Source of the DNA: a virus
Virus record (IMG/VR): IMGVR_UViG_3300033183_000245
Coordinates: 1-34,527 of that record
Strand: one strand, 5' to 3'
Length of the DNA stretch: 34,527 bases
Position 1 is the stretch's first letter. The number at the start of each line of letters is the position of its first letter. The position numbers and the translations under genes were made by a program. The notes under the pieces are model-generated. The model was given only the letters and a program-made list of their open reading frames with translations. It searched no databases and was not told where the DNA came from. Below are positions 1,103-17,415 of this stretch, in pieces.

Positions 1103-1535
1103 TGCATCACAGAGAGGCCGCAGCAATCAGCGTAAGGGCGGATACCATGAGCGCAAGAACGGCAAGCGGCTAGGGGAGCTGACTGGCCTGACGTTTGAGC
1201 GTAACTTGGATCAGCGCAGAGAAGCTGATCATCTGGGCGATTTGATCTGCACGGATGCGGATTTCCCATTTGTGATCGAAAACAAGTATCGCTCCAAAGG
1301 TAATGGCATTCCAGCGGGGGCGTGGGAGCAAGCCTGTAGAACCGCACACAAGACGCAGCAGTGGCCAAGCGTGGTCTATCAGAATGGCCGCGTTGCGCCG
1401 CGTTGTCGCGTCCCTCTGGCCGTCATAGGACGTGCGCAGGGTGGGCATGACCTAATCCCGTTTGGTACAGCTGACCTATCAATGGAAGACTATGCTGAAC
1501 TTGCACTTCAGCTAATGCGCAACAAAAGGTTTTGA
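1095..1535 (+). CDS. Putative PD-(D/E)XK endonuclease / resolvase-like protein
   Basis: 146 aa if translation begins at the GTG at 1095, preceded by AGGAGG at 1077-1082; a TTG at 1071 is in frame but would place the start inside that ribosome site. The N-terminus is basic (RGRSNQRKGGYHERKNGKRLGE). The centre has HLGDLICTDADFPFVIENKYR, matching the D...ExK core of the PD-(D/E)XK nuclease fold, with Asp in GDL and Glu-Asn-Lys as catalytic residues. Small phage proteins of this shape are often Holliday-junction resolvase-like or branch-cutting nucleases used in recombination and replication. Size and location in the early operon agree. The exact substrate is not evident. Confidence 0.65.
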   Translation: MVSASQRGRSNQRKGGYHERKNGKRLGELTGLTFERNLDQRREADHLGDLICTDADFPFVIENKYRSKGNGIPAGAWEQACRTAHKTQQWPSVVYQNGRVAPRCRVPLAVIGRAQGGHDLIPFGTADLSMEDYAELALQLMRNKRF

Positions 1536-1550
1536 CCAAGGAACCTCTAT

Positions 1551-1644
1551 AGAAGGAAATCACTTCTGTCCCCCTATCGAAGGACAGCTGACTAGGGGGC
1601 CGCCTCAGAAGGAATACCCTTATGCCCCCCTATCGAAGGACAGC
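1551..1644. repeat. Imperfect 38-bp direct repeat, period 56 bp
   Basis: The units are 1551-1588 and 1607-1644. Each begins AGAAGGAA and ends in the perfect 19-mer CCCCCTATCGAAGGACAGC (1570-1588 and 1626-1644), with a diverged middle. The CCCCCTA of the first unit can also pair with TAGGGGG at 1593-1599. Repeat and hairpins overlap, so the duplication may have built the structured RNA described for this interval. Confidence 0.75.
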
Positions 1645-3459: not shown

Positions 3460-4104
3460 ATGGAATACAGATTGTATAACGTGACTGCGCTACACGCGCG
3501 TCTACACACAGCACACAACTTCAGTGCATCAGATAATCGCTCAATGCCCTGTGCATTTGATGCGCCTGATGCGAAGTATGAGTGCAGTTTTATTATTTCC
3601 GAGGCTCAAGCCAAGGAAACGGCACGTAAGGTTGTTGAAGCCTACAATTCAAAAAAGAAGCACGATTGGCTGGAGTTTAAGCCATCTGGTCTTGATGATT
3701 TGTTTAAGCGCGACACGGATATGAACGGCGTTGAAACAGGCAACTACATCCTAAAAGCCGTTAAAAAAACCTACGGCGAAGAGGGCAATGCCCCAAAGGT
3801 TTGGATGCCAAATAGCAAAGAGGCAACCGATGATTTCCGTGTGACAAACGGATCAGATTGCCACGTCGTCTTGACGCTTGCGCCGTGGAACTACGCGGGC
3901 AAAGCGGGTGTCCAATTCCGTCTAAAGGGCGTGATGGTCACAACGTTGGCTGACGCGCCAGCAATGGGTAACCCGTTTTTGGACGACCCAAACGCCAACG
4001 TGAATGGCTCCATTGATGCGGAGCTAGACAGCCTCATGAATGACATAGCGGGCAAGAAGGCACCCACGCCTGACGCGCCGTTTCAGGACGACGTACCCTT
4101 TTAA
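3460..4104 (+). CDS. Single-stranded DNA-binding protein (DUF2815 / gp2.5-like)
   Basis: 214 aa. The body reads as an OB-fold DNA-binding protein of the DUF2815 class: YECSFIISEAQ near residue 45, an APKVWMPNSKEATDD loop, and a beta-rich CHVVLTLAPWNYAGKAGVQFRLKGVMV segment. The C-terminus ends FQDDVPF, close to the acidic tip (DDDIPF) of bacterial SSB that recruits DNA repair and replication partners. It follows the exonuclease by 2 bp and precedes the primase-helicase, so it should coat ssDNA in both recombination and replication. The conserved tip hints that it can dock host SSB-interacting proteins (inference). Confidence 0.8.
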   Translation: MEYRLYNVTALHARLHTAHNFSASDNRSMPCAFDAPDAKYECSFIISEAQAKETARKVVEAYNSKKKHDWLEFKPSGLDDLFKRDTDMNGVETGNYILKAVKKTYGEEGNAPKVWMPNSKEATDDFRVTNGSDCHVVLTLAPWNYAGKAGVQFRLKGVMVTTLADAPAMGNPFLDDPNANVNGSIDAELDSLMNDIAGKKAPTPDAPFQDDVPF

Positions 4105-4127
4105 TCACTCGTTTGTAGGAGTTTCAG

Positions 4128-4325
4128 ATGTTTGACATCAAATCAAAGCGAGTGCGCTTGGGTTATGGGTTGCGTAAGGCGGGTGTCTCACGCGCAACTT
4201 TCTATCGCAAAATGTCGGGCCACCCGTTGGCCCCACAAACAAAGGTGGAGCCAGACGGCTCCGCCACTTTCCGTCGCACAGAAATGGATCGCTTTGTAAA
4301 GGCGATACGGAAAGATGAGGTGTAA
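4128..4325 (+). CDS. Small helix-turn-helix protein (AlpA-like)
   Basis: 65 aa with GTAGGAG before the ATG at 4128. The segment YGLRKAGVSRATFYRKMSG is a helix-turn-helix of the AlpA/MerR-like sort, and the basic tail RRTEMDRFVKAIRK would be the closing helix after a wing. It lies between the SSB and primase genes, 2 bp ahead of the latter. It may regulate the early operon or help load the replication proteins at the origin; neither can be shown from the sequence. Confidence 0.6.
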   Translation: MFDIKSKRVRLGYGLRKAGVSRATFYRKMSGHPLAPQTKVEPDGSATFRRTEMDRFVKAIRKDEV

Positions 4326-4327
4326 CG

Positions 4328-6295
4328 GTGACTAACGTCAAAGCATACCCCGTTGCACACGCCGACTATTGCGGCAAACTCGAATGGTACTTGGTCCCAA
4401 TCCCTGCAGGGTCAAAGGGGCCAACACATACCAAGTGGCAGACGCCAGAGCGCACACTGTCAACGCCAGAGGCAGCGCAAAAGTTTTTTGAGAACAACCC
4501 AACACTGAACGTTGGGTTGCTTCACAGTGCCTCTGGTACCTGCGCCGTAGACATCGACAACGTCGAATACACGCGCATGATATTTGAGGAGCTGGGCATC
4601 GACTTTGATGATCTAATGCAGTCAGCACCTCAAATTGTTGGGCGTGAAAATCGCGGCAAGTTATTGTTTAACGCGCCGCCTGATTTGGTGATGCGCAAAA
4701 TATCATGGCCTACAAAAGATGATCCGCGCCGCACCGAAGTGGTGTTTGAGCTGCGGGCAGGGCCAGTACAGGACGTGTTGCCACCAAGCATACATCCCGA
4801 CACAGGGCGTCCGTACCGCTGGGAAGGGCGTTCGATCTGGGATGGGTTGCCAGACTTGCCAGAGCAACTTTTGACGATCTGGCGTGAGTGGGACTTATTT
4901 CGTCCGCAAATGATGGGGATTTGCCCGTGGATACAGCGCGACGCGCGGCCGCCTGCAAAACCGCGTCCACCTAGCGATGGGCCAAGTGTTATTGATGCGT
5001 TCAACGCGGCGCATGATATTCGTAGCTTGCTGATCCAGTACGGATACAAGCAGACAGGCAAAGATCGGTTTCTGTCGCCTAACTCATCAACAAAGTTGGC
5101 TGGGTGCATTGTGTTTGATGATGGACGCGCTTTTAGCCACCATCAGTCAGACCCATTTGATGAAAAGCACAGCTTTGATGCCTTTGAGGCATATTGCCAA
5201 TACGAGCATCAGGGAAACATCAAAGAAGCCGTCAAATCGGCGGCTGCACTTTTAAACTTGAACGAAAAGCCACGCGTTGAATTTGCTTCAGAGGTCGAAA
5301 GCGAACCTAGCAAACCTTTGTTCAAACGCATCGGGCTTGAGGACGTCACACCACCTGTGTGGTTGGTGAAGTCGCACATCGAAGAAGGCACCTTTGTTAT
5401 GGTGTTTGGCGCGTCTGGAGCAAAGAAATCATTTCTTGTTTACGATCTCGCATGTTGCATTGCGACGGGCAAAGATTGGCACGGCTATCGGGTCAAACAG
5501 GGTGCGGTATTGATTATTGCAGGTGAAGGCCATGGGGGTCTTAATCGCCGTCTTAAAGGCTGGGAGAAGTTTAATAATCAAAGCCTGAAGGATGTGCCGC
5601 TATATGGCAATGAGCGACCACTGATCCTCACGGACGATGCGGATATAGCCGCGCTAATTGCATATATCGAAGAACGTATCAGCATTGATGGCACACCATC
5701 ATTGATCATTGTTGATACACTGGCACGTGCGTTAGGCGCAGCGGATGAACGCTCTGGTGCGGATGTAAACAAGCTGATTGCGGCTCTGACAGGGGTCATA
5801 CAGCAATATCGCTGTGCAATCCTTCTGGTGCATCACACGGGCCACTCAGACGCCGCACAGCACCGCGCAAGGGGTGCCTCTGAACTGCCTGCGGCGGTTG
5901 ATCATGAGTTCCGCGTGGAACCCTTCGAGGAAGAGGGGATGCAGCTGCCTGCAACGTTGCTCACTAACACCAAAAGCAAAGATGCGGCACTCATGGAGCC
6001 TGTCATTTTTGATATGATCAGTGTTGGTCTTGGGGTTTGCGATGAGGATTTGAAGGAGATCAACACGCTTGTCCCTGAATTGCGCGGGCCGATAAGCGAA
6101 GAAGACGTCGAAACCATCAATCCGATCACAGTCGTGGTTGATGAGGATCGTAAGTTGCGGCGCAAGGGTGACTTCAAAAAACCCGATCTTGTTCGTGAGG
6201 TGTGGATCACACTGGATGGCAGCCGTAGAACAGCGGAACGCTGGGTGCGTAAGGCGATTGAAAGGGGGGAAATAGATGACTTCCCTAGATCGTAG
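4328..6295 (+). CDS. Bifunctional primase-helicase (Prim-Pol plus RepA-like AAA ATPase)
   Basis: 655 aa from a GTG start 2 bp after the previous stop. Residues about 15-190 form an archaeo-eukaryotic Prim-Pol domain: CAVDIDN holds the metal-binding DxD pair, and VLPPSIHPDTGRPYRW is the classic later motif. Residues about 340-560 are a hexameric RecA/RepA-like helicase domain: Walker A GASGAKKSF, GAVLIIAGEGHGG, Walker B SLIIVDTLARALG, and AILLVHHTGH as the sensor motif. The C-terminus (RRTAERWVRKAIERGEI) resembles a winged helix. It should prime and unwind phage DNA; the iteron-rich gene immediately downstream is the best origin candidate. Length and domain order match phage primase-helicases of this class. 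Confidence 0.88.
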   Translation: MTNVKAYPVAHADYCGKLEWYLVPIPAGSKGPTHTKWQTPERTLSTPEAAQKFFENNPTLNVGLLHSASGTCAVDIDNVEYTRMIFEELGIDFDDLMQSAPQIVGRENRGKLLFNAPPDLVMRKISWPTKDDPRRTEVVFELRAGPVQDVLPPSIHPDTGRPYRWEGRSIWDGLPDLPEQLLTIWREWDLFRPQMMGICPWIQRDARPPAKPRPPSDGPSVIDAFNAAHDIRSLLIQYGYKQTGKDRFLSPNSSTKLAGCIVFDDGRAFSHHQSDPFDEKHSFDAFEAYCQYEHQGNIKEAVKSAAALLNLNEKPRVEFASEVESEPSKPLFKRIGLEDVTPPVWLVKSHIEEGTFVMVFGASGAKKSFLVYDLACCIATGKDWHGYRVKQGAVLIIAGEGHGGLNRRLKGWEKFNNQSLKDVPLYGNERPLILTDDADIAALIAYIEERISIDGTPSLIIVDTLARALGAADERSGADVNKLIAALTGVIQQYRCAILLVHHTGHSDAAQHRARGASELPAAVDHEFRVEPFEEEGMQLPATLLTNTKSKDAALMEPVIFDMISVGLGVCDEDLKEINTLVPELRGPISEEDVETINPITVVVDEDRKLRRKGDFKKPDLVREVWITLDGSRRTAERWVRKAIERGEIDDFPRS

Positions 6296-6842
6296 CCTTC
6301 TTCAGATTGAGGATTTCCTCAAAACGCACCCAAACGCATCTGTTCGGGTCAAGTTCAATGGCGATGACAATTACCGTAATTATCCGTCGGGTGGTGTAAC
6401 AAACGACACTTTTTGCGACACTGCGGATGAGGGTGTCGTTTTTGAGGATGATGAAACTGAAATTTGCGACACTGTTGCGACAGTTAAGCGACACTTGTCA
6501 TTTTCAGAATGGTTTAAAATCAATGCCTTAGAGGATGTTAGCGACACTGTTGCGACACCTTCAACACCAAGTGTCGCTCGGGATGACCACGCGACAGCGG
6601 AACCCCAGACTAGCCCCCCTTTAGGGGGGCGTCTGGATGCGGGTGACGCGCCGACTGTCGATTGGGCTGATTTGAGTGAAAAACAATTTGAGCAGGCACT
6701 GCAAACAATCACCTGCCTTGAGGAGCTGAATGGCTTGGCCAATCGGCGGCGGGTGCTGCAACGCGATTGCAAGCAGTGGTCTGAGGCGCAGCGCAGTTTG
6801 ATCCTCATGCGCAAATTCATGTTGGAGAATGGCCATGGATGA
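6276..6842 (+). CDS. Hypothetical protein containing iterons in its coding sequence
   Basis: 188 aa, with a strong ribosome site (AAGGGGGGAAAT) and a 20-bp overlap with the primase-helicase. The N-terminal half is low in conserved features and shows repeated CDTVAT and SDTVAT peptides created by DNA repeats; a Pro-rich linker (PQTSPPLGG) follows; the C-terminal part from about residue 125 (WADLSEKQFEQAL onward) is helical and looks folded. This recalls replication initiators such as lambda O, where origin iterons lie in a flexible linker between a DNA-binding and a partner-binding domain. No DNA-binding motif is obvious, so the initiator role is inference. Confidence 0.6.
   Translation: MTSLDRSLLQIEDFLKTHPNASVRVKFNGDDNYRNYPSGGVTNDTFCDTADEGVVFEDDETEICDTVATVKRHLSFSEWFKINALEDVSDTVATPSTPSVARDDHATAEPQTSPPLGGRLDAGDAPTVDWADLSEKQFEQALQTITCLEELNGLANRRRVLQRDCKQWSEAQRSLILMRKFMLENGHG
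6403..6597. other. Candidate replication origin: GCGACACT iterons
   Basis: GCGACA(C/G) occurs at 6415, 6466, 6477, 6488, 6541, 6552 and 6591, a near copy (ACGACACT) at 6403, and inverted copies near 6433 and 6571. The runs 6466/6477/6488 and 6541/6552 are spaced exactly 11 bp, one helical turn, so a protein would bind one face of the DNA. The gap 6496-6540 is AT-rich and could be the unwinding region. The site lies just after the primase-helicase gene. Confidence 0.55.
6605..6636. other. Long perfect hairpin beside the iterons
   Basis: CCAGAC (6605-6610) pairs with GTCTGG (6631-6636), and GCCCCCC (6613-6619) with GGGGGGC (6624-6630) around a TTTA loop, with only a TA bulge. It is inside the coding sequence at the Pro-rich linker. 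It could be part of the origin (single-strand initiation site) or a roadblock in the mRNA. No T-run follows, so a terminator is unlikely. Confidence 0.7.
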
Positions 6843-7146
6843 AATCCGCTTAGGCAAGCTGATGCTGAAGTACGAACGCGAACAGGCAATTTTGGGCAAG
6901 CGGCCACCGCTACCCTGCGACCTCCGCATGAGGCTCAAGGAGTACAAGCGGCCAGATCGCACCAAGGATGTTCTGCACCACATCAACGCGCACAACGGCA
7001 TCACCACGAAGCAGTTGTTTGAGAAGGTCAACTTTTCCTACGAAGACTTTCAGGCTGCGCTCCGCACTTTGGTGAAGCGCGGTCAGGTGCTGGTGGGCCA
7101 ACAGGGCCGCAGCAAGATTTATTTCCCGATGGTCAAAGGACGGTAG
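6835..7146 (+). CDS. Hypothetical protein with winged-helix-like C-terminus
   Basis: 103 aa from the ATG at 6835, which has GGAGA six bases upstream; an ATG at 6829 is too close to it. It overlaps the previous gene by 8 bp. The C-terminal two thirds, KDVLHHINAHNGITTKQLFEKVNFSYEDFQAALRTLVKRGQVLVGQQGRSKIYFP, have the helix-helix-recognition helix-wing layout of a winged helix domain. The N-terminus is basic. It could regulate the switch to late genes or act as a replication accessory protein; neither is shown. Confidence 0.6.
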   Translation: MDEIRLGKLMLKYEREQAILGKRPPLPCDLRMRLKEYKRPDRTKDVLHHINAHNGITTKQLFEKVNFSYEDFQAALRTLVKRGQVLVGQQGRSKIYFPMVKGR

Positions 7147-8818: not shown

Positions 8819-9199
8819 TTATTGGTCCATGTAAGAAAAATTTGGGACGTATTCCTTTTTCAAGATTTTTTTCAAATCTTTAATGCAACTGTTAAAAACT
8901 TCTTGAGTGAGTTTTATTTCACGAAGGATAAGTTTGGCTTTCGTGTCATCTTGCGCTTTCCTGCGGACAGGGTTTCTTCTCTTTATAAAACCATTGTTTT
9001 CCAAAAGTGTTGTAATTTCGTGTATCGGGCCAGTTTCAAATCGACTATTGAGTTCCCATTGGTTCCAACGTTCTATTTCATAGCAATAAACCACCCTGTG
9101 TATCTGTTGATCAATCTTGTTCAGTTGTGAAACGTCAATAGTTTGGGCGTGGGAGTTACTCGACAGCAACATTACTAACACAAATAAAATCTTCTTCAT
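8819..9199 (-). CDS. Secreted protein of unknown function (antiparallel cargo)
   Basis: 126 aa from the ATG at 9199 (GGAAG before it). MKKILFVLVMLLSSNSHAQ is a clear Sec signal peptide with cleavage after Ala. The mature part is charged, helical, with two cysteines (VVYCYEIERW and NSCIKDL) that could form one periplasmic disulfide. It is inserted between the HNH gene and terS, opposite to them, and is AT-richer by eye than its neighbours. No family recognised. The 137 bp to the right (9200-9336) hold no gene; GGGGGGTGGGTC at 9249-9260 lies where cos is expected in HNH/P27 phages but I cannot confirm it. Confidence 0.65.
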   Translation of the reverse strand: MKKILFVLVMLLSSNSHAQTIDVSQLNKIDQQIHRVVYCYEIERWNQWELNSRFETGPIHEITTLLENNGFIKRRNPVRRKAQDDTKAKLILREIKLTQEVFNSCIKDLKKILKKEYVPNFSYMDQ

Positions 9200-9793: not shown

Positions 9794-10108
9794 TTAATCA
9801 CCACCAAATTCAAACCGAGCATCTAATTCGCAGGTGAATGTAAAAGATTTTGGAGAAAATTTGTCTCTGTAAGGCAGCACCTCAGACTTCGTCCATTCAT
9901 CAACTATTTTGAAGTCGTCTACTTCTTGAGCCGTCCATACAGCAGTTTGCTTACATGGATCACTTACGTCTGTGGCGATCTCGACGGTAAATTTATCTTT
10001 TAACTCAGCATCAAACTCTGACCATTTTTGCTTTAGGATCATAACAAACATTTGGCAATCCTGCGCATCTTTAAAGGTATTCATGATAGTTCGTCTGATC
10101 TCTGGCAT
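9794..10108 (-). CDS. Small two-cysteine-pattern cargo protein between terS and terL
   Basis: 104 aa from the ATG at 10108, which has GAGGAA seven bases before it. Longer versions from 10144 are open and would add a short hydrophobic start (MVAFFQTV) like that of two related genes at 16844 and 17134. The signature FKDAQDC early and FTFTC near the end matches the F-[SK]-x2-[EQ]-[EDH]-C and [FY]-x-C pattern of those proteins; an extra cysteine sits in the middle (DPCKQ). It fills the terS-terL gap almost exactly: 1 bp from terS, 40 bp from the terL start. No known family. Confidence 0.6.
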   Translation of the reverse strand: MPEIRRTIMNTFKDAQDCQMFVMILKQKWSEFDAELKDKFTVEIATDVSDPCKQTAVWTAQEVDDFKIVDEWTKSEVLPYRDKFSPKSFTFTCELDARFEFGGD

Positions 10109-10148: not shown

Positions 10149-11666
10149 ATGACGACACGCGGAGAAAAGGTTTGCCAGTTCATTGAACGCTACTGCCTGA
10201 TCCCAGAAGGTAGCAAAGTTGGCCAGCCGATAAAGCTGTTGGACTTCCAGCGTAAGTTTGTTTTGGATGTCTACGATAATCCAGCGGGGACGTCGCGTGC
10301 TTATCTCTCGGTGGCCCGCAAGAATGGCAAATCTGCTCTTATCGCCGCAATCGTATTGGCGCACTTAGTTGGGCCAGAAGCAAAGCAGAATAGCCAGATC
10401 ATCAGTGGTGCGCGATCACGCGATCAGGCCGCGTTGGTTTTCAAACTTGCTGAAAAGATGGTCAGACTATCGGATGAGCTAACAAAAATTGTGCGTATCG
10501 TGCCAAGCCAAAAGTCATTGGTCGGTTTGCCCTGTAATGTTGAGTACCGAGCGATCTCTGCTGAAGCGGGGACCGCGCATGGCTTATCCCCTACCTTAGC
10601 CGTGCTTGATGAAGTCGGGCAGGTTCGTGGTCCTCACGATCCGTTCGTGGAGGCTATTGAGACGGCGCAAGGTGCGCATCATCAGCCCCTGTTGATTGCC
10701 ATCAGCACCCAAGCCGCCACGGACGGTGACTTGTTTTCGCTGTGGTTGGATGACGCCGCGAACTCTGCTGATCCACGTATCGTGTCACATCTCTACACCG
10801 CACCGAAGGATTGCGAACTGTCAGACCGCAAAGCGTGGGCTGCGGCTAACCCTGCAATGGCGCAGTTTCGATCACAAACTGATATTGAAGACTTTGCTGC
10901 ACAAGCCGAACGGCTCCCAGCAAAGGCAAACTCATTTCGCTGGCTCTACTTGAACCAGCGCATAGAGGCGCAATCGCCATTCCTATCTCGGGCAGAGTGG
11001 GAGGCAAACAACGCGTCTCCCAACGTCGAGCACGGAGATTATTGCTTCGCAGGATTGGACTTGTCAGCTAGCCGTGACCTTACGGCTCTCGTCTTAGTTT
11101 TTCCCAAAGCGGACAAGTTTCACATACAGCCTCATTTTTTCCTCCCTTCAGACGGGCTGCGTGATAAATCCCAAGCGGAGAAAACTCCCTTTGACCTCTG
11201 GGCCGACGAAGGATTTCTGCACACAATAGAGGGGCCAGTCATTCAGCCTGCTATTGTGGCGCAGACTGTAGCGGAAATTGCGGAAACATATGATCTGCAG
11301 TTGCTGGCGTATGACCGCTGGCGGATCAATGACTTCCAGCGCGAGTTGGATAACATTGGTGCGCAGATACCTATGAAAGCCTTTGGGCAGGGGTTTAGAG
11401 ATATGTCGCCCGCTGTCGATAAACTGGAACGCCTAGTTGCAGAGCGCAAGTTATGCCATGGCGGTCACCCGATTATGAACATGTGCGCGGCTGGTGCTGT
11501 TGTGCAATCTGACCCCGCAGGGAACAGGAAGCTGCACAAAGCTAAAAGCTATTCAAAAATCGACGGACTGGTTGCGCTAGCGATGGCATTGGGATGCATG
11601 AGTGCGGACGACTTAATACAACCGACGTCGCCTTGGGATGACCCAAACTTTAAGTTGGCGGTTTAA
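10149..11666 (+). CDS. terL: Terminase large subunit (YmfN / HK97 type)
   Basis: 505 aa. The ATPase half has an adenine-binding LLDFQRKFV motif, Walker A SVARKNGKS, Walker B LAVLDEVGQ and the coupling motif AISTQA. The nuclease half shows FAGLDLSASRDLTALV with its catalytic Asp, a second acidic site in AYDRWRINDFQREL, and the closing KIDGLVALAMALG. TerL pumps phage DNA into the prohead and cuts it at unit length. GAAAG lies about 15 bases before the ATG. Its stop overlaps the stop of the convergent cargo gene by 3-4 bp. Confidence 0.92.
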   Translation: MTTRGEKVCQFIERYCLIPEGSKVGQPIKLLDFQRKFVLDVYDNPAGTSRAYLSVARKNGKSALIAAIVLAHLVGPEAKQNSQIISGARSRDQAALVFKLAEKMVRLSDELTKIVRIVPSQKSLVGLPCNVEYRAISAEAGTAHGLSPTLAVLDEVGQVRGPHDPFVEAIETAQGAHHQPLLIAISTQAATDGDLFSLWLDDAANSADPRIVSHLYTAPKDCELSDRKAWAAANPAMAQFRSQTDIEDFAAQAERLPAKANSFRWLYLNQRIEAQSPFLSRAEWEANNASPNVEHGDYCFAGLDLSASRDLTALVLVFPKADKFHIQPHFFLPSDGLRDKSQAEKTPFDLWADEGFLHTIEGPVIQPAIVAQTVAEIAETYDLQLLAYDRWRINDFQRELDNIGAQIPMKAFGQGFRDMSPAVDKLERLVAERKLCHGGHPIMNMCAAGAVVQSDPAGNRKLHKAKSYSKIDGLVALAMALGCMSADDLIQPTSPWDDPNFKLAV

Positions 11667-12136
11667 TTTAAGTCTGCTTCCAGTTTAAAACCTGCGTTTT
11701 TTAAGAAGCCGATAAAGTCCCGCATATTCTCGTGACCCTGTATACTTTTGACCGCAAAATATCCTGAACTCATCGAAAAGGCTTCGTAATATTTGCATGG
11801 ATCGGTATTAGGAATTACGTTGCTAATTTCGTCTAAATGCTTCTCGTAGCCTGCCCCTAGAGTTATTTTGACCATGTTATTTGGTAAAACTTCAGCGATC
11901 AAATCTGGCCAATACTTAGATTTTTCGTCCGTTGACATGCTTTTCATTAGGAAAAGTTGATTGTCTTTTTCACAGAAGTCTAGGTTAGACACATACGCTT
12001 TATCACCAACCAAAAGGTCGCCGATTAAGTAGCCATATGTAACTCTTCTTACCTCATCACGCGTTACGTTTACGTCAAACGCTTGAAGCTGAGTTGACCA
12101 AAATATCGCACTAACGAAAAACAAAATCGAACGCAT
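11663..12136 (-). CDS. Secreted protein of unknown function (antiparallel cargo)
   Basis: 157 aa from the ATG at 12136, with GGAG seven bases upstream. MRSILFFVSAIFWSTQLQA is a Sec signal peptide ending at an Ala-x-Ala-like site. The mature domain (about 138 aa) is mixed alpha/beta, with two cysteines (LDFCEKD and DPCKYYEA), and ends in a conserved-looking block, MRDFIGFLKNAGFKLEADL. It overlaps the terL stop and ends 30 bp short of the divergent portal start, so it has been fitted into a minimal gap. A periplasmic role in the lysogen is likely; function is not recognised. Confidence 0.65.
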   Translation of the reverse strand: MRSILFFVSAIFWSTQLQAFDVNVTRDEVRRVTYGYLIGDLLVGDKAYVSNLDFCEKDNQLFLMKSMSTDEKSKYWPDLIAEVLPNNMVKITLGAGYEKHLDEISNVIPNTDPCKYYEAFSMSSGYFAVKSIQGHENMRDFIGFLKNAGFKLEADLN

Positions 12137-12166: not shown

Positions 12167-13360
12167 ATGGGCATGTTTGACAGATTTATAAAGACCGAAC
12201 AACGATCACTTGAAAACCCGACTGTGCCTGTTTCTGCGGACAACTTCCTGCACTTGATGGGCTGGGGTGACTTTCATTCCACCTCTGGTGTGACGGTCAA
12301 TATCGACACTGCTCTTGGCGTTCCTGCTGTTTGGGCTGCAGTCAACTTTATCTCAGGCACGTTGGCCAGCCTGCCGCTTGAAGTATATCGCGCAAACGAG
12401 CGTGTGACGGATGGAATTGGCGCGTGGCTCAACCGTGCGATCAATCCAACGACATCTTCGTTTCAATGGCGCAAGTACAGCTACGAGCAAACCCTAACAG
12501 GTGGACGCTCAGTCACGCTAATCCTGCGCAACGGGCGCGGTGATGTGACGGACTTGGTGCCGCTTGACCCTGCTGATCTGCATGTTCAAGAAGTCATGAC
12601 ATCGGAGTTTCCGACGAAAACTTACCGCAGTAAGAGCCGCGTTTACCAAGCCTCAGAGGTCATCGACCTGACCTTTATGCAGAAGCACAATCAGATCGAC
12701 ATACGTGGTCCGATTATGGCGAACAAAGACATCATTGGTTTGGCCATTGCGTCAGCCCGCTATGGCTCTAAAGCGTTCCAGTCTGGTGGTATCCCGCCAG
12801 CGGTACTGCAGGGTCCATTCCAAAGCGGTGCAGCGGCACAGCGGGCGTCTGAGGACGTCGCAGCCACAACTGCCAAGCTAGCGCGGGAAGGGCGACCAGT
12901 TATGGCTCTGCCTGCAGGTCACGAACTTCGATCTGTTGGGTTCTCCCCAGAGCAAATGCAGCTGTTGGAATTGCAGCAATTCTGCATTGAACAAATCGCG
13001 CGTATCTATTCATTACCGCCAGTCTTTATCCAAGATTTAAGTGATGGAACTTATTCCAACGTGGAGCAACAGGATTTGCATTTCGTAAAACACACGCTGC
13101 GTCGTTGGATTGAGCAGACAGAGCAGGAGATGAACCTTAAACTGTTTGGCCGTGAAAGTGATACGGAAGTCCGCTTTAACGTGGATAGCTTGCTTCGTGG
13201 TGATTTGAAAACCCGTATGGAAGCACACGCGACTGCAATTCAGAACGGCATTAAGACGCCAAACGAAGTGCGTGAAAAAGAAGGCTTAGAGCCATTACCC
13301 GCTGGCGATGATCTGATGATCCAAGGTGCGACTGTGCCGATTGAAAGCCAAGATACGTAA
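12167..13360 (+). CDS. Portal protein, HK97 family
   Basis: 397 aa. Characteristic motifs: TALGVPAVWAAVNFISGTLASLPLEVYR near residue 45, WRKYSYEQTLTGGRSVTLILRNGRG, DIIGLAIASARYG, and FCIEQIARIYSLPPVFIQDLSDGTYSNVEQQ, which are those of HK97 gp3-type portals. It forms the dodecameric DNA gate at the capsid vertex. The C-terminus ends PIESQDT, but a 59-bp copy of the preceding DNA at 14590 continues in frame as GEGEAVVVS to a TAG at 14679. The present end is therefore a replacement made when the next gene was inserted. Confidence 0.9.
   Translation: MGMFDRFIKTEQRSLENPTVPVSADNFLHLMGWGDFHSTSGVTVNIDTALGVPAVWAAVNFISGTLASLPLEVYRANERVTDGIGAWLNRAINPTTSSFQWRKYSYEQTLTGGRSVTLILRNGRGDVTDLVPLDPADLHVQEVMTSEFPTKTYRSKSRVYQASEVIDLTFMQKHNQIDIRGPIMANKDIIGLAIASARYGSKAFQSGGIPPAVLQGPFQSGAAAQRASEDVAATTAKLAREGRPVMALPAGHELRSVGFSPEQMQLLELQQFCIEQIARIYSLPPVFIQDLSDGTYSNVEQQDLHFVKHTLRRWIEQTEQEMNLKLFGRESDTEVRFNVDSLLRGDLKTRMEAHATAIQNGIKTPNEVREKEGLEPLPAGDDLMIQGATVPIESQDT
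13292..13350. repeat. 59-bp portal-end duplication, left copy
   Basis: Identical to 14590-14648 except at two positions, both synonymous in the portal frame (TTA/CTA for Leu and AGC/AGT for Ser). It encodes PLPAGDDLMIQGATVPIES. The pair brackets the 13412-14587 gene. Confidence 0.95.
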
Positions 13361-13363
13361 CTC

Positions 13364-13395
13364 TTGCAATAAGTCTCTCATGTCTCATAATGAGA
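13364..13395 (+). promoter_or_regulatory. Promoter of the inserted cargo gene with overlapping palindrome
   Basis: TTGCAA (13364-13369), 16 bases, then CATAAT (13386-13391) give a credible sigma-70-type promoter 20 bp ahead of the cargo start codon. The perfect palindrome TCTCAT-A-ATGAGA (13383-13395) covers the -10 element, a good place for a repressor. An own promoter is the hallmark of a phage moron. The reading is by eye. Confidence 0.5.
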
Positions 13396-13411
13396 TAGGG
13401 AGATTTTGGTC

Positions 13412-14587
13412 ATGCTGCGTTTCTTTTTTATTTTAATTAGCGTTTTAATTACTGCGTTTGGCAGTTCAAGTTTAGCTAAGGGCGTCTCTTGCCTGCCAGA
13501 TGGTTATCCTCATGTAAAAATAAGTCCGGGTTGGGATTGTAATAAAGCGTCAACTGCGACTGAAAAAGCCATATGTGAAAAACAAGGTCCACCACATTAC
13601 CCTGCGGTGAAAGATTTTTTGGTTGGGCAGATATATAAACAACTTAAAAACGCTGGACAATTGACACCTGTGCTAATGGAGCAATTTCGCATCAACAAAG
13701 ACAATCGCGATTATTGCGGTGACAATGTTAGTTGTATCTCCAAAGCGCGTGGTGCTCAGCTTAAATCTTTACTGAATTTAGATCAGATTACTGAAGACGA
13801 GTATGAAGCATGGTATTGCGAATTTATTGAAACCAATAATTTGATGCCAAGTGCAGATGAAATAGCTGCATTCAAAGCAAAAAGTGATGCCGATTTTGCT
13901 AAAAAGGTTGCTGAAGAAGAGGCGCGTAAAGCCAAGCAAGCAAAAGAATACGAACAAAGAATGGCGAAATTGGCTGAGCAAAAAGCCAAAGAAGAGGCAG
14001 AACAAAAAGTCTTAAAACAGAAATGGGATACTAAGCGCAGCGAGTTGTTAGCGAACAGTATAGGCTACAGAAATATTCTGCTGTACATGACTAAAATGGA
14101 AATTCGTGACGAAGCAAAATGCTTTTTAAAGCCCCAAGTCAATGCTGTGTGCTACGGCTTGGATAACATAAAGTTTGGCGGTATTTTTGATGAAATTCCC
14201 GACTTTAAAAGTTTGGATCGCGTCTTAGTCAGTCTGGAACTCGATTTAGGACCACTTGATACCTATTCTTGGGTGTCTGCGCTTTCGAATTGGAGCAACG
14301 CCGATCCTGAAGATCGAAATATTTATCAGAATATGCGATCTATTTTGGATAAAAAATACAAACTAGATTTTGAATTTAGTGAAAGAGATATAACTTTTTT
14401 TGATGACGGTGAAAAAAACACATTGCGAGTGTCTTATAATAGAGGGCAAGTGACGCTAGAGTTGCGCAAGAAAAAGATCGATTACTCAACCGACATCAGA
14501 CTGTTTTTAAACTACCAAACACCAGAATTAGGTGCGAAATATATGCAGCGGTACGAACCTAAAAAAGCAAAAGCGAGCGACTTTTAA
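13412..14587 (+). CDS. Secreted LprI-like N-terminal domain plus coiled coil, inserted cargo
   Basis: 391 aa from the ATG at 13412 (AGGGAG upstream); a TTG six bases earlier is unlikely. Residues 1-23 are a signal peptide (MLRFFFILISVLITAFGSSSLAK). Residues about 35-125 carry WDCNKASTATEKAICE and later GDNVSCISKARGAQLKSLL, the cysteine pattern of LprI/DUF1311 lysozyme-inhibitor-like proteins. Residues about 145-210 are a Lys/Glu/Ala coiled coil. The C-terminal 180 residues are an unrecognised domain with two more cysteines. It is rightward like the late genes, AT-rich by eye, has its own promoter, and sits between two copies of the portal end. A periplasmic envelope-protection role is plausible but inferred. 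Confidence 0.7.
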   Translation: MLRFFFILISVLITAFGSSSLAKGVSCLPDGYPHVKISPGWDCNKASTATEKAICEKQGPPHYPAVKDFLVGQIYKQLKNAGQLTPVLMEQFRINKDNRDYCGDNVSCISKARGAQLKSLLNLDQITEDEYEAWYCEFIETNNLMPSADEIAAFKAKSDADFAKKVAEEEARKAKQAKEYEQRMAKLAEQKAKEEAEQKVLKQKWDTKRSELLANSIGYRNILLYMTKMEIRDEAKCFLKPQVNAVCYGLDNIKFGGIFDEIPDFKSLDRVLVSLELDLGPLDTYSWVSALSNWSNADPEDRNIYQNMRSILDKKYKLDFEFSERDITFFDDGEKNTLRVSYNRGQVTLELRKKKIDYSTDIRLFLNYQTPELGAKYMQRYEPKKAKASDF

Positions 14588-14589
14588 AA

Positions 14590-14648
14590 CCACTACCCGC
14601 TGGCGATGATCTGATGATCCAAGGTGCGACTGTGCCGATTGAAAGTCA
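14590..14648. repeat. 59-bp portal-end duplication, right copy
   Basis: Second copy of 13292-13350. It lies 2 bp after the cargo stop codon and keeps the original downstream codons of the portal gene. Confidence 0.95.
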
Positions 14649-14679
14649 GGGTGAGGGTGAAGCGGTAGTAGTTTCGTAG
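14590..14679 (+). pseudogene. Orphaned original 3' end of the portal gene
   Basis: In frame it reads PLPAGDDLMIQGATVPIESQ followed by GEGEAVVVS and a TAG at 14677-14679. It has no start codon or ribosome site and is cut off from the portal gene by the cargo gene. It is the likely ancestral portal C-terminus. Confidence 0.85.
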
Positions 14680-14890
14680 CCAACAAAAAACAGGGAGCCT
14701 CACCCTCGTACAATGCTAGGGAGCAATTGTGTTAAGTTGTACGGCTTCAAACGAAAAATGGATCAGTGTGCCGATGCGTGAGCTGACACGGTGGAGTGAT
14801 CAACCCACGCAAAGGCAAATATAGGACGGCTTTCGCCGCACCATACAAGTCTCAACGACTTAAATTTCAAAACATTTAGAGGAACATAAT
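14680..14890 (+). other. Gene-free stretch rich in inverted repeats before the protease gene
   Basis: No credible ORF. AGGGTGAGG near 14647 can pair with CCTCACCCT at 14698-14706. GTACAA (14708-14713) pairs with TTGTAC (14737-14742), competing with the hairpin CAATGCT/AGCAATTG (14711-14729). GATCA/TGATC brackets 14761 to about 14790, and CGGC-TTTC-GCCG is a small hairpin near 14827-14838. It may be the leader of the protease-capsid mRNA or a small RNA; I cannot assign a class. The end (AGAGGAAC) is the ribosome site of the protease gene. Confidence 0.4.
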
Positions 14891-15475
14891 ATGGACAACC
14901 GAGAAAGTCGGCAGTCTGCATCTTTTGAGGTGCGGGCTATTGATGATGCGACGGTCGCCGTCGAAGGTTATGCGGCTGTCTTTAATCAGGAAACAGTCAT
15001 AGGCGGACAGTGGCGAGAGCAGATTGCACAGGGTGCTTTCCGCAATGCTATTGGTCGTGATGATGTTGTATTTCTTGTAAACCATGATGGGTTGCCCTTG
15101 GCGCGTAGTCGTAGCGGAACCCTTGAGTTGTCGGAAGACGATCATGGCTTGCACATTCGTGCGTTGCTTGATCCCACCGATCCAGATGTCCGAGCCATCG
15201 TCCCAAAAATGAAACGGGGCGACTTGGATAAGATGAGTTTTGCGTTCGTGCCGACCCGCCAATCTTGGGATGATGAGGATGATATGCCTCGTCGTACTAT
15301 AGAGGAAGCGGAGCTACACGACGTATCTATCGTTACGACCCCAGCGTACAGCGGCACCGAGATCGGGCTGCGCAGCTTGGAGCGGCATCGCAAAGCACAG
15401 AAGAAGAGCCAAGCAGCCCGCAGAATGCGGATGAAGGCTCGCCAATCCCTAAATCGCAAAGGAGAAGTCTCATGA
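14891..15475 (+). CDS. Prohead maturation protease, HK97 gp4 family (S78)
   Basis: 194 aa. VAVEGYAAVFNQETVIGG is the typical start of the fold; VVFLVNHDGLPLARS contains the catalytic His; LDKMSFAFVPTRQSW contains the catalytic Ser; ELHDVSIVTTPAYSGTEIGLRS completes the core. The basic tail (KAQKKSQAARRMRMKARQ) is common. It cleaves the N-terminal delta domain of the capsid protein during prohead maturation. AGAGGAAC precedes the ATG. It overlaps the capsid start as ATGA. Confidence 0.92.
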   Translation: MDNRESRQSASFEVRAIDDATVAVEGYAAVFNQETVIGGQWREQIAQGAFRNAIGRDDVVFLVNHDGLPLARSRSGTLELSEDDHGLHIRALLDPTDPDVRAIVPKMKRGDLDKMSFAFVPTRQSWDDEDDMPRRTIEEAELHDVSIVTTPAYSGTEIGLRSLERHRKAQKKSQAARRMRMKARQSLNRKGEVS

Positions 15476-16713
15476 CAGAGATGAAAACAATGCGTGAAGA
15501 GATGGCTGCTATTGCCACCGAAGCACGCGCTAAACTTGCCGAAGTTACAGATGAAACACCTGAAGATCGTGCAGCAGAGATTGAACGTGAATTTGACGCC
15601 ATGATGGCGGATCACGACAAGCTAGCTGCACGTGTCGAGCGTGAAGATCGCGTTGCTCAGGCGTTCAAAAAGCTAGAAGCAACCGACACCGCACAAATCC
15701 CAGAAGCCGAAGGTCGCACAGCACCTGCAGTCGACAACGGTTTGACCATGGATTACCGCGCAGCATTCGCTGAAATGATTGCAAATGGTGGTGATGCGTA
15801 TGTTGAGCCAGAGGTTCGCAACGTTTTAAAAGAATATCGCGTTCAAGTGGGTTCTACTAACTCTGCTGGCGGCTATACCGTCCCAACTGAGCTAGCGACG
15901 TTCATTGTCGAAAGCATGAAAGCGTTTGGGCCAATGTATACAAGCCCATTGTTTACAAGCATCGAAACAGCAGCGGGCAACCCGTTCAACATTCCAACGC
16001 TTGACGACACCAGTGTAACTGCTGAAGCGCATACTGAGGGTACTCAGCCAACCGACGACGGCGGCAAAGACGCGACCTTTGGTCAGAAAACACTAAGCAG
16101 CTTTGCATTCGACACTGAATGGGTTCGCTGGTCAGCGGAATTGAACGCAGACAGTGTCTTCAACATGGAAAGCCTACTAGGCCGCTTGCTTGGTGAACGT
16201 ATGGGCCGCATCGCAAACGCGAAGCTAACCACAGGTTCTGGTTCATCTGATGTCGAAGGTATCGTCACAAACTCAGCGGCTGGCGTAACTGCTGCCTCTG
16301 CAACTGCCGTGACTGCCGATGAAATCATCGACTTGGTGCATTCCGTTGATCCTGCTTATCGCCAATCACCAAATGCTGCGATCATGATGAACGACAGCAC
16401 ACTAAAGGCGATCCGTAAGTTGAAGGATGGCAATGGCAACTACTTATGGCAAATGGGCGACTTCCAAATTGGAACGCCGCAAAACATTCTGGGCTATCCA
16501 GTTGTTGTGAACCAAGACATGGACAGCATTGCGACTGGCAAGAAAACAATCTTGTTTGGTGACATGTCTCGCTTTTATGTTCGCAAGGTTGGCCAGCCGA
16601 GCATTTACGTTGCACGTGAACGCTTCGCGCCTGACTTTGGTATTCTTGGCTACATTCGGTTGGATGGCTGCTTGTCCGATACAGCGGCTGTGAAGCACCT
16701 AGTACAGGCGTAA
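15472..16713 (+). CDS. Major capsid protein, HK97 fold
   Basis: 413 aa. Residues 1 to about 110 are a charged helical delta domain (EMAAIATEARAKLAEVTDETPEDRAAEIEREF) acting as built-in scaffold and normally removed by the protease encoded just upstream. The rest has the HK97 pattern: YRVQVGSTNSAGGYTVPTELATFIVESM, a FGQKTLSSFAFDTEWVRWSAELNADS segment, and PNAAIMMNDSTLKAIRKLKDGNGNYLW with the final FGDMSRFYVRKVG. It assembles the icosahedral shell. Coupled to the protease by ATGA and followed by a strong hairpin. Confidence 0.93.
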   Translation: MTEMKTMREEMAAIATEARAKLAEVTDETPEDRAAEIEREFDAMMADHDKLAARVEREDRVAQAFKKLEATDTAQIPEAEGRTAPAVDNGLTMDYRAAFAEMIANGGDAYVEPEVRNVLKEYRVQVGSTNSAGGYTVPTELATFIVESMKAFGPMYTSPLFTSIETAAGNPFNIPTLDDTSVTAEAHTEGTQPTDDGGKDATFGQKTLSSFAFDTEWVRWSAELNADSVFNMESLLGRLLGERMGRIANAKLTTGSGSSDVEGIVTNSAAGVTAASATAVTADEIIDLVHSVDPAYRQSPNAAIMMNDSTLKAIRKLKDGNGNYLWQMGDFQIGTPQNILGYPVVVNQDMDSIATGKKTILFGDMSRFYVRKVGQPSIYVARERFAPDFGILGYIRLDGCLSDTAAVKHLVQA

Positions 16714-16719
16714 TAAAAA

Positions 16720-16755
16720 TGGGTGCTGCGCTTCTAGACATTAGTGCAGCACCCA
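16720..16755 (+). terminator. Strong hairpin after the capsid gene, no T-run
   Basis: TGGGTGCTGC (16720-16729) pairs perfectly with GCAGCACCCA (16746-16755), 6 bp after the capsid stop. No T-run follows, so it may stabilise the capsid mRNA 3' end or weaken transcription into the two leftward genes rather than terminate fully. Confidence 0.5.
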
Positions 16756-16843: not shown

Positions 16844-17065
16844 TTAATGATCAAAAGCAGCCGTGCAGATGTAATTCGGGCCAGTTGTGTTGTCTTCATC
16901 TAAATAAACTTCTCCAAAAAGCACTGTAGCGTATTTCTGCGATTTAAGGAGTTTAGCACCTGTAATACACTCCTCTATCGTAGAGAAGCGTCCAACTTGT
17001 TCATAGTGTATTTCTTCGCCCTCAAGATTGCTAAAATATGCAAGCAGAATGAAAATTATGTCCAT
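16844..17065 (-). CDS. Small two-cysteine-pattern protein, probably membrane-anchored or exported
   Basis: 73 aa with an excellent ribosome site (AAGGAGAT) before the ATG at 17065. The N-terminus MDIIFILLAYFSN is short and hydrophobic. FSTIEEC (Cys33) and YIC (Cys67) fit the shared F-[SK]-x2-[EQ]-[EDH]-C ... [FY]-x-C pattern also found at 9794-10108 and 17134-17415. The two cysteines could form a disulfide if it reaches the periplasm. It lies in an antiparallel pair between the capsid gene and the head-tail genes. No known family. Confidence 0.6.
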   Translation of the reverse strand: MDIIFILLAYFSNLEGEEIHYEQVGRFSTIEECITGAKLLKSQKYATVLFGEVYLDEDNTTGPNYICTAAFDH

Positions 17066-17133: not shown

Positions 17134-17415
17134 TTAGCGTGAAACAACACGACCAGTGCAAAAAAATGTCAAATGGTCGCCTTCTTCGCTAGTTTGTCGA
17201 ATTGCAAATTTCCCTTGTCGTTCGATAAGTTCGCTACGCCATCCGACCTCTTGCGCCAAAAACCAGACACCGCTTTTTTGCCGCTCTAACAAAGTCTGCT
17301 CGCAATGCTGCTCTGATTTAAAAACATTAACTTCATCATTTGGTTGATAAATTCTTGCGGCGACCACGTCACCGTTAAAGGCTTCAACCATTAGTAAAAC
17401 AAATTCAACGACCAT
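17134..17415 (-). CDS. Small two-cysteine-pattern protein, relative of its neighbour
   Basis: 93 aa, AGAGAG before the ATG at 17415. It starts MVVEFVLLMVEAFNG, then FKSEQHC (Cys38) and FFC (Cys86). The layout equals that of the 16844-17065 protein with a longer middle, so the two are likely diverged copies. It ends 42 bp before the rightward head gene. The region 17066-17133 between the pair holds the downstream gene's ribosome site and nothing else that I can support. Confidence 0.6.
   Translation of the reverse strand: MVVEFVLLMVEAFNGDVVAARIYQPNDEVNVFKSEQHCEQTLLERQKSGVWFLAQEVGWRSELIERQGKFAIRQTSEEGDHLTFFCTGRVVSR

Follow-up and report, generated by a model that had tools for sequence, protein, structure and literature searches.

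The 3′ end of the portal gene is present twice in a marine tailed phage, once on either side of an extra gene. The 34,527-base IMG/VR virus record IMGVR_UViG_3300033183_000245 was analysed over its whole length (hereafter, the window), and a cargo gene was found between portal and prohead protease, followed by a stranded stub of the portal end. The feature is real, and its reading as a recombination scar at a moron is well supported by the sequence. In the model we favour, two related phages probably recombined unequally, which added the moron and left the second parent's old gene end behind as the stub.

The portal 3′ end flanks an extra gene in the head operon

Family matches identified terminase small and large subunits, portal, prohead protease, capsid, head-tail adaptor, tape measure and tail fibre, giving the window the gene order of a tailed phage. 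The features relevant to this study are as follows.

11663-12136, minus strand: second cargo gene, in the terminase/portal gap; 157 codons, hydrophobic N-terminus
12167-13360, plus strand: portal gene; 397 codons, C-terminus VPIESQDT-stop; PF04860 (E 4.6e-77) over residues 53-373
13286-13350, plus strand: left copy of the portal 3′ end, functional (repeat search)
13351-13360, plus strand: shortened new portal end past the repeat (DT-stop), with no SQDT end among related portals
13361-13411, plus strand: cargo leader; promoter-like TTGCAA-16-CATAAT (13364-13391) overlapping the inverted repeat TCTCATAATGAGA (13383-13395)
13412-14587, plus strand: cargo (moron) gene; 391 codons, N-terminal hydrophobic stretch, LprI-like at about aa 33-130, predicted long helix at about 148-214
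14584-14648, plus strand: right copy of the portal 3′ end, a stranded stub (repeat search)
14649-14679, plus strand: old portal end GEGEAVVVS-stop, continuing the stub; stop codon 14677-14679
14680-14890, plus strand: intergenic leader from portal end to protease; where close relatives possess this leader, it mostly measures about 210-275 bp
14891-15475, plus strand: prohead protease, the next core gene; PF04586 (E 9.3e-41)

A repeat search of the window found 61 of 65 nt (94%) identical between the left and right copies; this direct repeat is the strongest in the window (self-BLAST E 7e-22). The first-pass annotation had described copies of 59 bp starting at 13292 with two differences, both synonymous. 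Over that length the description is accurate (57/59; TTA/CTA for Leu and AGC/AGT for Ser in the portal frame) and both copies are real, but recognisable homology starts six bases earlier, at 13286. Because the homology starts there and three of the four mismatches of the repeat fall within its first ten bases, the true joint lies somewhere within 14584-14593.

The left copy closes the portal with ESQDT and a stop at 13360. Translated in the frame of the portal, the right copy gives SQGEGEAVVVS and then its own stop. Both ends are as first annotated. The copies bracket an intact open reading frame that runs from an ATG at 13412 to a TAA at 14585-14587. This stop codon sits on the first bases of the right copy, such that the last codon of the cargo lies on the joint; the cargo enters the copy in a frame other than that of the portal and stops at once. 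In their middle, over about 50 bp, the two copies match each other exactly, also at two positions where the nearest relative (L002) has other bases. The copies differ at both edges, and the ends that follow the repeat (DT-stop versus GEGEAVVVS) are unrelated. On the left, eight bases, AGCCAAGA, are shared with portals of the SQEN type. The portal stays intact, since the Pfam domain extends no further than residue 373 of 397 and the tail beyond is variable in relatives, in agreement with the earlier proposal that the essential gene remains usable.

Cargo-free relatives carry the stranded end once

A portal search of IMG/VR returned 107 relatives, of which the best 80 were analysed; one contig (L042) stops within the portal, leaving 79 readable portal ends. 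Among these best 80 of 107, the cargo was found in none of the loci (0/80; tblastn) and an SQDT end in none of the 79 readable ends. A pattern scan of the contigs for VPIESQDT-stop gave no matches, and a scan for the GEGE end matched in L002 and L014. In the same set the nearest portal, that of L002 (98% identical), ends in SQGEGEAVEVS as a single copy, and GEGE-like ends were found in 3 of the 16 loci with a portal identity of at least 90% (L002; L014, ending SQGEGEVVVVS; L010, ending SSGEGEAVVVS). The remaining loci at this identity end in SQEN..., SQSED..., TQSEG... or VQGAG.... Judged by these relatives, the stranded end is ordinary for the clade and the SQDT end is unusual. A scan for the conserved portal-end motif gave one match per stretch among the matches listed (86 reported).

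Alignment to L002 placed window 12167-13350 at 3731-4914 and window 14584-16729 at 4850-7026. The two alignments overlap by exactly 65 bp, so this cargo-free relative has the repeat once, and its portal-protease gap is 243 bp. Cargo-free relatives can therefore end like the stranded copy and lack the duplication, as the first-pass annotation anticipated. What it had named as counter-evidence, a cargo-free relative ending in SQDT or two unrelated copies, was absent from the best 80 of 107 (0/79) and from the copies themselves (61/65).

Downstream of the repeat, window 14650-14700 is identical to L010 (51/51 nt) and 96% identical to L002. The closest relative changes along the window: the portal body is nearest to L002, the 51 bases that follow the stub to L010, and the second half of the leader to L012 and L015. 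Such changes of nearest neighbour show mosaicism, without placing the parents of the joint.

The cargo is predicted to be a secreted protein with an LprI-like domain

The cargo region has a GC content of 39%, compared to 51% for the portal body and 53% for the start of the protease. An AGGGAG-like ribosome-binding stretch precedes the ATG. The promoter-like signal of the leader is not above chance (2 sites found versus 5.8 expected from shuffles), and a search for a terminator-like site just 3′ of the cargo found none. A common promoter or operator of the cargo genes was considered and rejected; CTCATwATG and GGAGATTTT occur in two cargo leaders and are absent from the other minus-strand genes examined.

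The N-terminal hydrophobic stretch reads as a signal peptide, predicting a secreted protein. In a set of 394 genomes from the family of one Rhodobacteraceae MAG, 8 matched the cargo with an E-value of 1e-3 or better, and every match fell within aa 28-124. Seven of the eight aligned bacterial stretches are assigned to PF07007 by Pfam, and aligning all eight with cargo aa 33-130 yielded eight invariant columns, four of them cysteines. PF07007 was not detected on the cargo itself up to E 10 (segments) or E 0.01 (whole protein). The cargo thus resembles recognised LprI proteins in their common Cys-rich domain and seems to carry a divergent version of it, differing from PF07007 members in falling below the Pfam threshold and in having a further 260 residues without relatives. 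Scans of the cargo against Pfam, PHROGs, NCBIfam and PADLOC returned nothing significant except one weak PHROG match (phrog_1376, a function-unknown family; E 0.0037) over the long helix. Sequences from the PDB match this helix only (best E 0.012, prohibitin). An AlphaFold2 model predicted from the single sequence was of unusable quality (mean pLDDT 44), and neither a homologue nor a donor of the cargo was found in the viral-contig and phage collections searched.

LprI is named as a lysozyme inhibitor, and phage proteins that block lysozyme at superinfection exist, for example T4 Spackle. By analogy with these, the LprI resemblance suggests a putative periplasmic role for the cargo, either protecting the lysogen or excluding rivals; none of the literature matches listed was relevant to LprI in phage exclusion. 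The cargo may be a new type of prophage-encoded envelope protein.

Stranded gene ends recur in the terminase/portal gap of relatives

Stranded gene ends were sought in 158 non-redundant sequences (157 loci and the window), with a closer search of 46 close relatives, window included. Across the 158 sequences, the portal 3′ end is doubled in the window only. By sequence comparison it is the terminase/portal gap, not the portal/protease gap, that is variable, indeed hypervariable, among the relatives. It measures 7-10 bp in L171, L024, L019, L029, L016, L017 and L046, 402 bp in L021, and 385-1143 bp with differing small ORFs in closer relatives. The second cargo gene of the window lies in this gap and has no DNA match (0) in the other loci compared. 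The portal/protease gap was rejected as a general cargo site; the longer gaps of more distant relatives look like another conserved phage gene that starts at the portal stop, visible in L112 as a single open frame.

In the L003 group (eight contigs, of which L175 and L179 end early), the gap contains, in order, the genuine TerL end, a cargo on the minus strand, 37 bp of portal start, a decayed 67-bp TerL end (matching the TerL end of the same group at only about 82%), cassette B, a 112-bp TerL end and cassette D, followed by the portal. In the L177 group (three contigs) the order is TerL, cassette B, a 111-bp TerL end, cassette C and portal. L010 holds a TerL stub of 40 bp, L014 holds a portal start stub of 34 bp between two cargo genes, and L141 has cassette C directly after its TerL end, without cassette B.

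Compared to L141, TerL of L177 also reads as a new end, cargo and a stranded old end. The right-hand TerL stub of L177 is 94.6% identical to the L141 TerL end and cassette C is 92.9% identical, whereas the left TerL end of L177 itself is 84.7% identical and the 217 bp upstream 81.1%. Because the stub is so much closer to L141 than the gene's own end is, stub and cassette C derive from one lineage, and the gene body and cassette B from a different one. Between L003 and L014, cassette D is 99% identical, with TerL and portal flanks at 81.5% and 80.7%, respectively; such identity between diverged flanks indicates independent movement. The L003 stub does not reveal its parent, since it is no closer to the TerL end of L014 (83.6%) than L003's own end is (82.7%).

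Left out of the stub count were the ‘protease end’ hits, all from a query (L023) with a wrongly set end, and the ‘protease start’ hits in L021, L173 and L181, loci in which the search turned up no intact copy. Two-piece TerL hits in L105, L114 and L146 proved to be one alignment split in two and were rejected as stubs. Across the clade, the stubs look like a recurrent scar of how such phages gain extra genes.

Unequal recombination is the probable origin of the stub

Both copies, the cargo-free single-copy relatives and the analogous stubs at other junctions are seen directly. From these observations we infer two parents rather than one inserted element, together with a recombination pathway. 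One parent would have carried an intact portal ending SQDT and then the cargo, and the other an ordinary portal ending SQGEGEAVVVS and then the protease leader. If an exchange fused the cargo's end to the second portal about 60-70 bp short of where that portal's conserved part stops, the recombinant would have the whole portal and cargo of parent one, and the downstream genes and a useless portal stub of parent two. Selection would confine surviving joins to the neighbourhood of gene ends, where the duplication stays short and essential genes are left whole. Homologous recombination via the repeat could later spread or remove the cassette.

The window's copies do not themselves show two parents, because their middle is identical over about 50 bp and they agree against L002 at two bases; a recent duplication or gene conversion would fit too. 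The only sign of a different left parent is AGCCAAGA, the eight bases shared with SQEN-type portals. The single copy in L002 would fit gain of the cargo and its loss by deletion between the repeats alike. The first-pass annotation held that an insertion replaced the portal C-terminus and stranded the old one. Relatives do end in the stranded sequence; a discrete inserted element, however, is putative, because a single unequal crossover bringing a whole portal and cargo gives the same product.

From the window alone, a one-step unequal exchange looks the same as the insertion of a pre-formed unit of portal end and cargo, such as an excised circle or a fragment of another phage. In such a homologous single-crossover insertion, recombination enzymes would pair the portal ends, leaving hybrid ends on both sides and repeats that permit later excision or transfer. 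We regard this as somewhat unlikely. The copies are identical mid-block and different at both edges, as expected if the crossover fell in the identical block, and the authors of the Island3 study favoured general recombination between sequences of about 50 bp (PMC3029335). The same joint of cassette B to a TerL end is found in L003 and L177 despite their different downstream cassettes (D and C), and L141 carries C without B, although the common B joints would also result if both groups inherited B from one ancestor and the cassette behind it was later exchanged. Neither a free unit nor a circle was found among the sequences searched, and the original joining of cargo to portal end would still be illegitimate, so insertion of a unit would explain spread rather than origin. 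Duplication of the portal end within one genome, by slippage or template switching, with capture of the cargo between the copies and later mutation of the left end to SQDT, would account for the identical block, including the two bases that differ in L002. It is improbable given the unrelated ends past the repeat and the L177 TerL stub, which is clearly of another lineage.

The window is a single assembled metagenomic virus contig, and its cargo/stub joint was not found in the other contigs searched, as might be expected if strain variants had been joined through the repeat during assembly. Such a false join, however, normally uses the shared block once and does not leave two flanking copies, and similar TerL stubs occur in the eight L003-group and three L177-group contigs, from different samples by contig name; we consider an assembly artefact very improbable. 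Least credible is retention of the stub for a function in cis, such as serving the cargo or protease transcript as its leader or terminator. About 50 bp of it are unchanged though now outside the portal, and stubs tend to adjoin small genes without another spacer, but no plus-strand terminator-like site lies in or just after the stub, a search of the portal/protease leader for an Rfam family gave no match, and the TerL stub of the L003 group has decayed.

The scar is of a known kind, with layering as the new part

Integrative elements such as e14 in icd replace the 3′ end of a gene. The window resembles these in that the old gene end is stranded at the far side of the insert and the host gene stays usable, and it differs in that the 1.2-kb insert has no integrase or recombinase. 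A search of the insert for recombinase families found no match, the cargo being its sole gene.

The closest parallel is in mycobacteriophage Island3 (PMC3029335). Its genes 67 and 68 have 60 bp common to their 3′ ends, and Brujita carries a single recombinant copy; the authors explain this by general recombination between sequences of about 50 bp. As with Island3 gene 68, an orphan gene follows a gene whose last ~60 bp recur at the other end of the insert, and a close relative without the extra gene holds a single copy. In the window the 65-bp, 94% identical repeat flanks the extra gene, and the single copy in L002 joins the left and right sequence. In Island3 the upstream gene is close to the right genome end, whereas the portal belongs to the head operon, and the inserted Island3 gene takes its last 18 codons from the stub, whereas the cargo meets it in another frame and stops immediately. 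Unlike what is described for Island3, contigs related to the window carry further stubs, layered, and also at a gene start. In light of this published geometry, the earlier claim that the window is a direct record of how morons enter structural operons goes too far (PMC3029335). Within the literature searched, mostly outside subscription journals, Island3 was the only match for moron joins with partial duplications, and we make no claim of absence beyond it. The scar is thus of a kind described once before, and its stacked recurrence in one clade is the new part.

Morons of lambdoid and other tailed phages are described, in PMC3029335 and PMC4378225, as single genes of lower GC content than their neighbours, lying between genes that are contiguous in relatives. 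The cargo resembles them in its position, its absence from relatives (0/80 of the best 80 of 107) and its GC content, and differs from typical morons in leaving a gene-end stub; a promoter of its own is at most putative, and no terminator-like site was found just downstream of the gene. PMC4378225 recognises no common recombinase target at moron regions and calls the mechanism of acquisition mysterious; moron entry is poorly documented because joins rarely leave traces. With gene-end stubs, each join can be located to a few bases, and the two parents can be distinguished when the old end is present in a relative. In a clade with several stubbed junctions, one can test whether morons are gained singly by unequal exchange or move as recombining cassettes.

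A broader view, which we consider unlikely at present, is that head-gene gaps in this clade act as loading docks for small secreted or membrane proteins, stacking cassettes by gene-end recombination, with short derivatives lacking capsid and tail genes shuttling the cassettes. If this were true, each layer would bring a fresh copy of the essential gene and strand the end of the previous copy, and the short derivatives, which carry all stubs seen outside the window, would act as exchange partners. All four stub-bearing lineages outside the window include short contigs; other short lineages lack stubs, and the lineages are few.

Additional features of the window and its relatives

Most or all of the capsid/tail block is missing from 18 of 157 related contigs (L003, L005, L006, L008, L010, L013, L014, L043, L122, L141, L142, L155, L157, L173, L177, L181, L182 and L183), in which the head genes jump to the equivalent of window 32.7-33.3 kb at eight different coordinate pairs. 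These short contigs may be satellites, defective genomes or decaying prophages, repeatedly derived from the clade. In L141, positions 2880-2990 comprise the first ~36 codons of the portal, seven filler bases and the last ~22 conserved codons, and the joint lies within a few bases of where the window stub begins. L003 has two copies (5317-5369 and 6632-6684) of the last bases of the gene ending at window 32982, bracketing two minus-strand ORFs, one with a signal-peptide-like start and one lipoprotein-like.

Small minus-strand genes lie amid the structural genes of the window (8819-9199, 9794-10090, 11663-12136, 16844-17065 and 17134-17415), some with hydrophobic N-termini, and the small minus-strand gene preceding TerL is conserved in L003. 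Window 1533-1644 consists of two tandem 56-bp units that are 77% identical. L016 is an 8,191-bp contig with a 33-bp direct terminal repeat, TerL and portal, and is possibly a complete small circular genome.
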